Part shown: piece after piece, positions 15,822 to 49,350 of the stretch
Layout of the letters: each line of letters opens with the position of its first letter
How positions within the stretch are numbered: position 1 is the first letter of the stretch
Program-made: the position numbers and the translations under genes
Assembly (NCBI GenBank): GCA_009842645.1
Contig: VYFB01000155.1
Coordinates: 1 to 49,350, forward strand
Length of the DNA: 49,350 bases
Source: Nitrospira sp. SB0677_bin_15
GTDB lineage: Bacteria; Nitrospirota; Nitrospiria; Nitrospirales; UBA8639
Direction of reading: 5' to 3'
The notes under the pieces: generated by a model
Told to the model about the DNA's origin: nothing
Seen by the model: only the letters and a program-made list of their open reading frames with translations
Databases searched by the model: none

Positions 15822-15889
15822 CGGGGATTTTGTGTCCCTCTTACAAAGGGGAATTATGTATTTAATTTGGCAAGATTGTTAGCAGTTGT

Positions 15890-15972
15890 AGGTCGGATTA
15901 GCCGAACAGGCGTAACCCGACATCGCAGGCCCTCGTCGGATTACGCTCCGCTAATCCGACCTGCGTTTTTTT
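15890..15972 (+). terminator. Hairpin repeat with T tract after the membrane protein gene
   Basis: Perfect 12-bp arms AGGTCGGATTAG (15890-15901) and CTAATCCGACCT (15951-15962) enclose further palindromic sequence, and seven T residues follow at 15966-15972. It belongs to a GTAGGTCGGATTA...TAATCCGAC repeat family, with a relative at 28629-28673. Termination is inferred; the loop is long for a classic intrinsic terminator. Confidence 0.4.
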
Positions 15973-16030
15973 GTAGCGGCCGTATCTTATGCGGCCAAGG
16001 AGAGGCGCCATAAGATGGCGCGGCTACAAT
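15971..16030. repeat. TTGTAGC...GCTACAA palindromic repeat, copy A
   Basis: The segment begins TTGTAGCGGCCG and ends GCGCGGCTACAA, with internal TCTTATGCGGC and GCCATAAGATGG also pairing. A related copy lies at about 41291-41350. It forms part of the 372-bp gap 15822-16193, which contains three repeat types and no gene. Confidence 0.6.
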
Positions 16031-16051
16031 AAGGAGAGGACGTCAAGTTAA

Positions 16052-16193
16052 GGAACCTCTGATTCAGTGTGATAGTGGGATGCAGGGCAAGGCGTCCCGG
16101 AGCGAAACCCGAAGCTTATCATCGAGATAGGTGAGGGTTGAGCGAGGACACAACGCAGCCATGCGCCCGATCGTGCACTTAATCAGAGGTTCC
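16052..16193. repeat. GGAACCTCTGAT hairpin element, copy 1
   Basis: A 142-bp element with perfect 13-bp terminal inverted repeats GGAACCTCTGATT and AATCAGAGGTTCC. The halves align imperfectly along most of their length (for example GTGATAGTGGG against the complement of CCCGATCGTGCAC), so the whole unit can fold into one long hairpin. The core from GTGATAG to GTGCA is shared with copies at 22734-22916 and 49283 onward. The element ends on the base before the spoIID-like gene's stop codon. No ORF is seen inside. Confidence 0.85.
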
Positions 16194-17381
16194 TTATGAA
16201 GACGGCAGGATCATGACCACCTGATCGCGCGGCAGAATTTCCGTCCCCGGATAGTAATAGCGCAGGATGGATTGATAGGGGTACCCCAACTCGGCCATTT
16301 CCTTGGCACCCCATTGACAGAGGCCGACCCCGTGTCCTGCCCCCTTTCCCGCAAACACCACGTGCCTGTCAATTCGTTCAATGGAAAAACGGGTACTGCG
16401 GACTTTGGCATACCCGAGTATCCTCCGAAATTCCTGTCCCGTGATAACGAGTTCTCCCCGGGAATGCAGGATTCTCATATCCTTGACTCGACCGGCAGTG
16501 GTCATGCCATAGGGCGTGAGCGTTGCGAGCCAGCCAATGGGATACCCTTCTTCCCTGAGCCGGGCTTCGACCGTGTCAAACGGAATGGTTGCTCGCCACT
16601 CATACCAAGGCGACTTCCGGTCAAAGGGACAAGCCACCCCTTTGAGATAGGGCAAGTCTTTGGCCCACACGTTCATAGCGTCTTCCGTAGGCCCGGCGGT
16701 CGTGGATGAATACACTGCGAAAATGGGACGGCCTTCATAGGTCAGGACCTGGCCGCGCGTCCGGTTTACGGCATCGAGCACGGCGCGATTAACTTTTTGA
16801 CGGCCCGTATAAACCTGATCCTGCACGTTCGCATAGACGTCGAACGGTTGGGCTGCGCTCTCGAGTTTCTTGTACAATACGTAGGTCCGCGCCGCCACGG
16901 CCTGCGTTCGCAAGAGTTCCTCGTGCCAACCGGGATTGACTTCCGAACTCACGACGCCCGCCACGTACTCTTCGAGATCAACCACGTTCACGATCAGCAG
17001 GTGTTCATCCCGGATCGTTATTTCGAGATCCCCGTACACCGCCCAATGTTGGCTCACCGCATCAGGGGACGATCTTTGAATGGTGATTTGTAATTCATTG
17101 TGTGTCCCGTGAATTGCGAGACCGTTGCCTCGGACCACGTTTCCATCGACCTGCAACCCATGCCCCTTCAGAACAACCGTTGCCTCGGACAACACGTCAA
17201 CGTGGTCTCCCGAAGACGTTTCGAGACGCAAATCTCCGGCGGAAGCGACCGTGACACGGTCGGCTTGTTCGGTCAAGGCAACCCGGATATGATCCGCTGC
17301 GTGAACGCAGGGCAACGATCCCTGCCCCACCCCGATGATCAGCAGGAGCATCCAAACCGGAGAGAAAGGGGGCTTGGTCAT
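16194..17381 (-). CDS. SpoIID/LytB-domain protein
   Basis: 395-aa exported protein with an N-terminal signal peptide (residues 1-29, ending VHAAD). The SpoIID/LytB domain covers the rest: EVNPGWHEELLRTQAVAART near residue 165, YSSTTAGPTEDAMNVW near 225, and GAGHGVGLCQWGAKEMAELG near 350. In Bacillus, SpoIID is a lytic transglycosylase acting on peptidoglycan; in non-sporulating Gram-negatives the role of such proteins is less defined but probably wall-related. The start overlaps the DUF2905-like gene (ATGA). The stop codon immediately follows hairpin element copy 1. Confidence 0.85.
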   Translation of the reverse strand: MTKPPFSPVWMLLLIIGVGQGSLPCVHAADHIRVALTEQADRVTVASAGDLRLETSSGDHVDVLSEATVVLKGHGLQVDGNVVRGNGLAIHGTHNELQITIQRSSPDAVSQHWAVYGDLEITIRDEHLLIVNVVDLEEYVAGVVSSEVNPGWHEELLRTQAVAARTYVLYKKLESAAQPFDVYANVQDQVYTGRQKVNRAVLDAVNRTRGQVLTYEGRPIFAVYSSTTAGPTEDAMNVWAKDLPYLKGVACPFDRKSPWYEWRATIPFDTVEARLREEGYPIGWLATLTPYGMTTAGRVKDMRILHSRGELVITGQEFRRILGYAKVRSTRFSIERIDRHVVFAGKGAGHGVGLCQWGAKEMAELGYPYQSILRYYYPGTEILPRDQVVMILPSS

Positions 17382-21140: not shown

Positions 21141-22688
21141 TCAACACAGCCCGATTTTATCGCCTTGGTTGGCGCGGCGCTCCAGTTGCGACGCGAGTTT
21201 ATTCAGGGCATTCAGATAGGCTTGGGCCGAAGCCACGATAATATCGGTATTCGCCCCGTTCCCGGTGACGATTTCGCCGTTCTGCTCGATCCGTACCGAC
21301 ACCTCTCCTTGCGCGTCCGTTCCGCCTGTGATGGCCTTGACCACGTAGGCCAACAATTTACTTTTGGTTTGCGTGATCCGGGCAATTGTTCGATAGACCG
21401 CGTCGACCGGACCATCGCCGGCGCCCGTCTCCTTCATCGCCCGCCCGTCCACCTCCAACTCTACGGTTGCCGTCGGCAATTGATTCGTCCCGCTTTGGGT
21501 GTTCAGCGCCTTTAACGAATACCGTTCAGGCACCTTGGTGACGGCTTCGGACACGATCGATTCCAAATCTTCCTCAAACAGTTCCTTTTTCTGGTCCGCG
21601 AGCCGTTTGAATCGCTCAAACGCCGCGTTCATTTCTTCGTCCGAGAGCGCATAGCCCAACTTCGCCAATTCCGCTCGAAAAGCGTGGCGACCGGACAGTT
21701 TTCCCATCACCAGACGGCTTTGCGTCAACCCAACGGAATCAGGCTGCATGATTTCATACGTATTTTTATCCTTGAGCAACCCGTCCTGATGGATCCCGGA
21801 AGTATGCGCAAACGCGTTCGCCCCGACGATGGCCTTGTTGGGTTGGACGACCATCCCCGTGATCTTGCTGACCAGCCGGCTGGTCTTGGAAATTTCTTCG
21901 GTGCGAATCTGCGTCCCGGCGTCATAAAAGTCTTTGCGGGTCCGCAGCCCCATTACGATCTCTTCCATCGACGCATTGCCGGCCCGTTCGCCGATGCCGT
22001 TGACCGTACATTCCACTTGCCCGGCGCCGGCGTGGATGGCCGCCATGGAATTGGCAACCGCCAATCCCAGATCATTGTGACAATGGACGGAGATGATCGC
22101 CCGATCGCAGTCACGCACCCGCGTCCTGAGCGTTCGGATAATCTCTTCAAATTCCTTGGGGGTCGTGTAGCCCACGGTATCGGGAATATTCACCGTACCC
22201 GCGCCTGCGTCCACGACCGCCTCCACGACTTCGCACAGGTAGGAGACGTCCGACCGCGTCGCGTCCATGGGGGAAAACTCAACGTCATCGACGTAGCTGC
22301 GCGCGTGCCGGACCATCTCGACCGCACGCTGAAGCGCTTCCTCTCGCGTCATGCGGAATTGGTGTTTCAGGTGAATGTCCGACGTGGACAGGAAGGTATG
22401 AATGCGTGGTTTGGCCGCCCCCTTCAATGCCTTCCACGCCGAATCAACGTCCGCAGGCTTGGCTCGTGCCAGACTACAGACCGTCGGGCCTTCCACCTCC
22501 TGCCCGATACGCTGCACCGCCTCGAAATCGCCGGGGGAACTGAAGGCAAACCCCGCTTCAATAATATCAACGTTCAAGCGAGCCAGTTGTTTGGCGACCA
22601 GCACTTTTTCTTCCACGTTCATGCTGGCCCCCGGAGACTGCTCGCCGTCACGCAAAGTGGTGTCGAAAATTCTGATGTGTCGCTTCAT
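21141..22688 (-). CDS. leuA: 2-isopropylmalate synthase
   Basis: Condenses acetyl-CoA with 2-oxoisovalerate, the committed step of leucine synthesis. The HMGL-like barrel begins with [16 protein letters not shown], and the metal-binding [14 protein letters not shown] lies near residue 200. The C-terminal 120 residues form the LeuA dimerisation and leucine-feedback domain. The 515-aa length fits LeuA type 1; citramalate synthase is a possible relative, but the N-terminal motifs fit LeuA. GAGGAG lies about nine bases before the ATG. A hairpin element sits 45 bp upstream of the start. Confidence 0.94.
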
Positions 22689-22733: not shown

Positions 22734-22916
22734 GGAACCTCTGATCCCCGATTAAAAACGTCGGGGACAGGCGTCGAGGACATGTTTATTGTGATAGCGG
22801 GATGCAGGGCAAGGCGTCCCGGAGCGAAACCCGAAGCTTATCAAACGAGATAGGTGAGGGTTGAGCGAGGACACAACGCCGCCATGCGCCCGATAGTGCA
22901 ATAAATCAGAGGTTCC
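22734..22916. repeat. GGAACCTCTGAT hairpin element, copy 2
   Basis: Second copy of the element at 16052-16193, 183 bp long. The core (GTGATAGCGGGATGCAGGGC onward) is nearly identical to copy 1. It carries about 41 extra bases just inside the left end, themselves a small palindrome CCCCGATTAAAAACGTCGGGG, so one repeat is nested in another. It lies between pssA and leuA, just beyond the terminator at 22919-22952. Confidence 0.85.
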
Positions 22917-22918
22917 CT

Positions 22919-22952
22919 AAAAAGCCTTCACCCCGAAGAGGTGAAAGCCTTT
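22919..22952 (-). terminator. Rho-independent terminator downstream of pssA
   Basis: On the minus strand AAAGGCTTTCACC pairs with GGTGAAGGCTTT (two G-U wobbles) around a seven-base loop TCTTCGG, and the stem runs into TTTTT. The wobbles pair only in the minus-strand RNA, so the signal is directional. It would end the psd-pssA transcript, which implies leuA needs its own promoter. Confidence 0.75.
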
Positions 22953-23069
22953 GACCTGCTTCGGGGGCATCAGGGGGACACTGCTGTTTTAAGCAGATCC
23001 GCCAGCGTCAATACCGCGTCACCTAAGAGAAGGGTGCCCCGTCCTTTTCCCTGCCATTGATCCATGCGA

Positions 23070-28628: not shown

Positions 28629-28673
28629 AGGTCGGATTAACGTAGCGTAATCCGACAAACCTGCGTAACCCGA
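28629..28673. repeat. GTAGGTCGGATTA hairpin repeat
   Basis: GTAGGTCGGATTAACG followed by CGTAATCCGAC forms a hairpin, with a trailing GCGTAACCCGAC. It is a relative of the repeat at 15888-15965 and lies about 40 bp upstream of the BioF-like gene. Confidence 0.6.
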
Positions 28674-48291: not shown

Positions 48292-49293
48292 ATGCGCGTC
48301 GTGTTTATGGGAACACCTGCCTTTGCGGTGCCGTCACTCGAAGCCTTGGACAACTCGGACCATGAAGTCGTGGGCGTGGTCACGCAGCCCGACCGCCCCA
48401 AGGGAAGAGGCCAAGCCGTGGTGTCGTGCCCGGTCAAAGAACTGGCGTTGTCCAAGGGATTGCCAGTGTGGCAGCCCGACAAGATCAAGAGCCCGGAATT
48501 CCTGCAACAACTTTCCGAGTGGAAGCCGGACGTCATCGCCGTAACGGCCTTCGGGCGGATTCTGCCCAAGGTGATCCTGGATCTGCCGCCCATGGGATGC
48601 GTCAATGTTCATGCGTCGCTGTTGCCCGCATACCGGGGCGCCGCTCCGATCCAATGGGCGCTCATTCACGGGAATACGGAAACCGGCATCACCACGATGG
48701 TGATGGATGAAGGCATGGATACGGGAGCCGTGTTGCTTCAGCAAACCATCCCGATCGAACCCGAGGATACTGTCTTGGAGTTGGGCAACCGGATGGCGCT
48801 GGCCGGCGGTGCGCTCCTGGTGGAGACGCTGACGCGCTTGGCCGCGCGCACGGTCGTCCCTCGCGCACAGGATCATAGCCGGGCAACGATGGCCCCGTTA
48901 CTGAAAAAAGAAGATGGCGTGATTGATTGGACCCAATCGGCCACGGAAATCGCCAACCGGATCCGGGGCCTCTCGCCGTGGCCCGGGTCCTACACCTTTC
49001 ATCATGCCTGTCCTGAGCAGAACGGAGCGGAGCGAAGTAAGCAGCGTTTGATCATCCGCAAAGGCCGTGTCGATGCACAAGGCGGCTTGGCCGGTGGCAA
49101 GCAACAACCCGGCACCATCCTGGCCGTGGGTCCGAAATCCTTTTGGGTGGAAACGGGTGAGGGTAGGATCGAAGTGCTGGAAGTGCAGCCCGCGAACAAA
49201 AAACGCATGTCCGTGGAACAGTTTCTGCTAGGATATGCCCTTCGAGCGCAGGAAACGCTTAGTCCGCAGTCGAGGACAACGTGGAACCTCTGA
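48292..49293 (+). CDS. fmt: Methionyl-tRNA formyltransferase
   Basis: Formylates initiator Met-tRNA. The N-terminal catalytic domain has FMGTPAFAVPSLEAL near residue 5 and the formyl-folate site HASLLPAYRGAAPIQWALI near residue 106; the C-terminal OB domain binds tRNA. AAGGA lies six bases before the ATG. At 333 aa it is longer than the usual 310-315 because of a 13-codon insert (49006-49044). Its final codons, Asn-Leu-stop, are the first bases of hairpin element copy 3. def is not adjacent in this window. Confidence 0.95.
   Translation: MRVVFMGTPAFAVPSLEALDNSDHEVVGVVTQPDRPKGRGQAVVSCPVKELALSKGLPVWQPDKIKSPEFLQQLSEWKPDVIAVTAFGRILPKVILDLPPMGCVNVHASLLPAYRGAAPIQWALIHGNTETGITTMVMDEGMDTGAVLLQQTIPIEPEDTVLELGNRMALAGGALLVETLTRLAARTVVPRAQDHSRATMAPLLKKEDGVIDWTQSATEIANRIRGLSPWPGSYTFHHACPEQNGAERSKQRLIIRKGRVDAQGGLAGGKQQPGTILAVGPKSFWVETGEGRIEVLEVQPANKKRMSVEQFLLGYALRAQETLSPQSRTTWNL
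49006..49044. repeat. Probable repeat-derived in-frame insert in fmt
   Basis: Thirteen codons ACPEQNGAERSKQ, containing TGTCCTGAGCAGAACGGAGC and GAGCGAAGT, resemble the TCCTGAGCGTAGCGAAGT-type repeats elsewhere in the window. They interrupt the expected PWPGSYTFHH...RLIIRKG join in the C-terminal domain. Confidence 0.5.
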
Positions 49294-49350
49294 TCTATTG
49301 TGATAGCGGGATGCAGGGCAAGGCGTCCCGGAGCGAAACCCGAGGCTTAT
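49283..49350. repeat. GGAACCTCTGAT hairpin element, copy 3 (cut by window end)
   Basis: GGAACCTCTGAT then the conserved core GTGATAGCGGGATGCAGGGC, matching copies 1 and 2 to the last base of the window. Its first 11 bases include the fmt stop codon. Confidence 0.8.

Follow-up and report, generated by a model that had tools for sequence, protein, structure and literature searches.

Three long imperfect hairpins with shared terminal inverted repeats lie along the window, the whole stretch of DNA analysed here (contig C49, 49,350 bp), and the locus raises the question of what kind of element they are, since an earlier note had described them as fitting either a non-autonomous, MITE-like element or a structured RNA. 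We are confident in answering that the hairpins are a type II MITE of about 142 bp, which is gene-free and shares only its terminal inverted repeats (TIRs) with an IS5-family insertion sequence (IS). The hairpin is then accounted for by the palindrome, and no host function is needed for the family.

The window copies and the wider family

Copy 1 (16052-16193, + strand) has the standard 142-bp form and carries GGAACCTCTGAT at 16052-16063 and, inverted, at 16182-16193. It lies between a left 4-bp target duplicate, TTAA (16048-16051), and a right one, TTAT (16194-16197), within which falls the stop codon of a SpoIID-domain gene (ORF 16194-17381, - strand). Copy 2 (22734-22916, + strand) is a long, 183-bp form in which an additional block of some 40 bp separates the left end from the core (22746-22785, + strand), as is typical of the 169-197 bp variants, and it sits 46 bp upstream of leuA (21141-22688, - strand). 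Only the first 68 bp of copy 3 (49283-49350, + strand) are present, because contig C49 terminates within the element; the final codons of fmt (48292-49293, + strand) and its stop codon, TGA at 49291-49293, are provided by this copy. The three copies are thus where the earlier note had placed them and, as it claimed, all are at gene edges: the stop of the SpoIID-domain gene, the upstream side of leuA and the 3' end of fmt. The window holds five exact GGAACCTCTGAT ends vs 0.18 expected, an expectation that allows one mismatch.

The extended hairpin proposed for copy 1 is borne out by a predicted fold of -70.2 kcal/mol, a single long hairpin (z = -7.3 relative to dinucleotide shuffles), and a fold is likewise predicted for the reverse strand (z = -5.5). 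No gene lies within the window copies, in agreement with the reported lack of an internal ORF, and 142 bp is too short for a transposase. No sigma-70-like promoter was found at 15900-16300, the region that includes copy 1. Copy 1 is 97-99% identical to its best-matching copies elsewhere in the genome.

Two further features of the window lie close to these elements. Adjoining copy 2, at 22917-22960, a hairpin followed by a T run on the - strand stands upstream of leuA and is conserved in relatives, most of which have some 59-88 bp more sequence in this region than the genome of the window (G000) and G011; it may be a leader attenuator for leuA or may terminate the gene upstream. A second intergenic palindrome, of the type GTAGGTCGGATTAGC..GCTAATCCGACCTGC, occurs at 15887-15965 and near 28634-28653, and its GGATTAGCGNAGCGTAATCC has two matches in the window vs 0.01 expected. 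This palindrome is a second dispersed repeat family, found beside many MITE copies.

The suggestion of a repeat family holds, but the figure of three copies does not: the genome-wide search that the earlier note had proposed yields many more. The 12-bp end GGAACCTCTGAT occurs 278 times in the 2.55-Mb genome vs once for a reversed control pattern, and stretches totalling 849 kb, most of them picked for carrying copies, contain 120, so that the census consists of these stretches together with the pattern counts. Exactly 142 bp is the length of 49 of the 120, the others being 141-143 or 169-197 bp; 38 are cut by contig ends, and full copies are nearly all of 141-197 bp, with a maximum of 216 bp. 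From the 278 ends and some 230-270 first-look candidates we estimate a genome total of roughly 140-230 copies in 2.5 Mb. A search of 395 genomes of the phylum found the core in 11 of the genus's 14 species and in no genome outside the genus. The core also occurs in public records, those with names being metagenome assemblies of Nitrospira sp. and Nitrospirales; several of these are, we presume, of marine sponge origin. Viral contigs gave no match to a 21-bp core pattern. Within an incomplete coverage of the literature, no paper describing this MITE family was found, and the papers on the end sequence that were examined are unrelated.

A block related to the extra one of copy 2, TAAGAACGTCG(A/G)GGACAGG, also precedes the core in the G010 and G006 copies L274 and L286. 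In copies L268, L273 and L285 of these two genomes, the left and the right end carry the same one-base insertion (GGAACCCTCTGA .. CAGAGGGTTCC), and this symmetry points to a matched variant of the ends or to template switching within the palindrome. At L148:14154, L150:3977, L156:7896 and L114:7379 in G000, a lone GGAACCTCTGAT end runs into non-MITE sequence; such ends may belong to decayed copies or to other elements that have this TIR.

Many G000 contigs end 30-90 bp inside a MITE copy and the MITE therefore limits assembly. Copies of the element explain breaks in these assemblies, the contig of the window being among those that end inside a copy, and repeat interiors may be homogenised in assembly through the MITE.

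Conservation of the core and of the ends

In two species the core is conserved above the ends, which is not predicted by a purely selfish element and is the one question worth following. Identity of the core to the consensus is 93% in G010 (a single contig) and G006, whereas the ends match it at 63% and 73% (about 68% together). The counts, 1977 of 2124 for the core vs 271 of 396 for the ends, give p of about 1e-37, a value that is indicative only, since the columns of related copies depend on one another. No relative of the transposase described below was found in G010 or G006.

Such a pattern is what would be seen if the element had been domesticated, that is, if a structured core of about 108-118 bp had a host function and was selected after insertion, with the IS5 ends as its means of spreading. 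A genus-specific palindromic core of transposon origin would in that case have become a dispersed regulatory or processing hairpin, retained through selection at many unrelated gene edges while its ends decayed in the species in which no relative of the transposase was found, and it might act as a small RNA, a protein-binding site or a hairpin for 3' ends or processing; we regard this reading as unlikely. Private changes in G000 also point towards it, being rarer per column in the core (10 in 83 columns) than towards the ends (23 in 54), as does the 99-100% identity of some orthologous copies with flanks of 83-88%. However, short-read assemblers can homogenise repeat interiors and so generate both the G000 pattern and that of the orthologues, and gene conversion between copies or a TIR-less ancestry of some of them could give the pattern in G010 and G006. 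In the one clean orthologous pair there, L268-L285, the core is 95% identical vs 92% for the flank, so that selection on the core is not established.

Covariation by RNAalifold is weak (-0.71), and it was set aside as proof of RNA function, being confounded by the palindrome, in which template switching can produce covariation. Rfam gave no match to the element, either at gathering thresholds or with E up to 1. Selection, gene conversion, core-only ancestry or, in the drafts, short-read collapse of repeat interiors could each underlie the excess conservation of the core. Of the two descriptions in the earlier note, the MITE-like one is upheld by the copies, the IS partner, the duplications and the empty sites; the structured-RNA one is left with a well-conserved core, no Rfam match and weak covariation.

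The probable IS5-family partner, insertion and loss

An autonomous IS with the same ends, which the earlier note had proposed to look for, is present in the same genome. Contig C105 of G000 (L070:1013-2177) carries an intact IS5-family element of about 1165 bp that encodes an IS5-type DDE transposase of 313 aa, scoring 312 bits with NF033581 (cut-off 140) and exceeding the cut-offs of DDE_Tnp_1 and DUF772. The element has inverted repeats with GGAACCTCTGATTAAGT ends and TTTA on both sides, a 4-bp duplication. It has 17 and 13 bp in common with the MITE at the ends and elsewhere chance words only, and it is because only the ends are common that the MITE is assigned to type II. G000 also holds a second, decayed copy of this IS, and two are present in G013, one of them near-intact and the other broken and bearing a MITE insertion in its end. 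Related IS with similar ends and with 4-bp duplicates such as CTAG or TTAA occur in other Nitrospirota, and one at L291, from another family of the class, has a GGAACCTCTGAT end and a TTAA duplication.

The common ends and the 4-bp duplication make it likely that the C105 transposase moves the MITE. That a different transposase moves the family, the C105 element being a bystander that shares its ends, seems to us improbable, and the evidence on it is mixed. The IS is represented in G000 by just the one intact and one decayed copy, no recognisable relative of its transposase was found in nine of the 11 MITE-bearing species, where movement would therefore need a lost or unassembled IS, and the targets of the MITE are mostly TNNA, not strictly CTAG as in several related IS. 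Against this, the C105 IS is itself inserted at TTTA; the inner extension that matches the IS, TTAAGT(G), is present in 34 of 78 G000 MITE copies vs 1 of 96 elsewhere, which ties the C105 IS to the G000 copies; and among 24 unassigned ends outside MITEs, only IS copies carry a transposase identified here. A separate idea, that the IS-matched subfamily (TTAAGTG) is a recent burst, was rejected: by internal identity it is not clearly younger, and a matched empty-site test gave 10 of 12 in each class.

The family is mobile, as seen in its 4-bp duplications, its empty sites and its variable occupancy. Perfect 4-bp target duplications flank 42 of 73 copies vs 4.4 by shuffling, and the same test gave no excess at 2, 3 or 6-9 bp. 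For 17 distinct insertions among the loci compared, some relative lacks exactly the element plus one 4-bp duplicate (a gap of exactly -4). For 24 G000 insertions with perfect duplicates, the two flanks were fused without the element and searched for in four relatives; 20 were found uninterrupted in at least one of them, and one of these 20 sites is filled in two relatives (142-bp gap) and empty in the remaining two. The orthologue of copy 1 in G001 is flanked by TTAT at either end, and G005 and G003 have a single, uninterrupted TTAT; the G001 duplicates imply that the left duplicate of copy 1 (TTAA) has mutated or that its left flank has been exchanged. Recombination between MITEs was considered for this differing left flank and rejected: the expected left neighbour lies on contig C39 of G000, but no recognisable MITE copy is present at the break there. 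None of the 13 relatives has copy 2.

Occupancy thus varies between species at empty orthologous sites of the kind that the earlier note had named as support for mobility, and the copies are not confined to ancient sequence at the same loci everywhere. About ten insertions are common to species (for example L046/L065/L238, L115/L230 and L151/L226), which indicates long-lasting activity of the family. These shared insertions are also what would be seen with an old fixed repeat, REP-like or intergenic, that has no mobility in the genus, but the tested insertions are mostly lineage-specific with exact empty sites and many have perfect duplications, and we give that reading almost no credence.

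The coding fraction is about 88% by simple ORF finding, yet the copies are mostly intergenic. In a set of 97 insertions with perfect duplicates, in which a few shared insertions enter repeatedly, 28 fall in predicted coding DNA vs 74 expected from the same 4-mers, and a stop codon lies within the duplicated 4 bp in 15 of the 97 vs 2.3 expected (5.9 among non-coding sites; p = 6e-4). Most of the 4-bp targets have the form TNNA. Since the duplication restores the stop codon, insertions at stops should be nearly harmless, and the site bias may be due to the removal of harmful insertions by selection no less than to the choice of target.

In the mechanism that we propose for the type II MITE, the IS5 transposase would recognise the GGAACCTCTGAT(TAAGT) ends and act in trans, placing the MITE in AT-rich 4-bp targets, mostly TNNA. 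Copies would then persist chiefly in intergenic DNA and at stop codons, where they would survive because the duplication regenerates the stop, and later loss would proceed by deletions inside the palindrome, leaving end-to-end scars of 25-33 bp or remnants of 6-10 bp. At L125, L131, L151 and L165 only two fused ends are left, of 25-33 bp; a GGAACCTCTG remnant is found in G000 where G003 has the element, and a GGTTCC remnant in G005 where G011 has it. The fused ends and remnants fit deletions inside the palindrome, imprecise excision being the alternative.

The locus of the last remnant shows a further difference. At L137:3893-4034, compared with L264-L267, G000 is without a gene of about 400 bp beside the MITE that four relatives have. 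The MITE is present there in G011, the site is empty in G001 and G005 has the GGTTCC remnant. A deletion adjacent to the MITE is possible.

Comparison with known systems

Type II prokaryotic MITEs are short (<500 bp), with terminal inverted repeats of about 4-30 bp, target duplications beside younger copies, no gene and a likeness to an IS at the ends only (PMC10969869). An AT-rich sequence is typical of such MITEs but is no requirement. The family is a type II MITE, as the earlier note suspected, and is of a kind already known: its length, inverted repeats, duplications, want of a transposase gene, ends-only IS match and mobility all agree with this definition. It resembles the described type II MITEs in being below 500 bp, with target duplications, a stem-loop, an intergenic location and many truncated or decayed copies (PMC10969869), and differs in its high copy density (an estimated 140-230 or so in 2.5 Mb), its restriction to one genus and the conservation of its core above its ends in two species. 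We describe a genus-confined MITE family of high density, with a probable mobiliser identified, in Nitrospira-like bacteria known from metagenome assemblies. Its insertions are markers between species, and its copies, which are of different age, offer a chance to examine whether MITE sequences become functional.

By their descriptions, Chunjie of Geobacter uraniireducens and QMITE2 of Coxiella are similar in their size variants and many partial copies (PMC10969869), and copies of QMITE2 lie mostly 3' of genes, lose their ends and resemble REP sequences (PMC10969869). Both belong to another host phylum; for the present family a probable autonomous IS is identified. With the IS5 family (NF033581, IS5_4), whose features here are a DDE transposase with DUF772, GGAACCTCTGATTAAGT ends and a 4-bp duplication, the MITE has only the ends in common and is without the transposase. 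The Correia and ERIC elements are likewise described as high-copy intergenic hairpin MITEs (PMC10969869), ERIC with 711 copies reported in Photorhabdus (PMC10969869), and for both of them effects on expression have been tested experimentally (PMC10969869).
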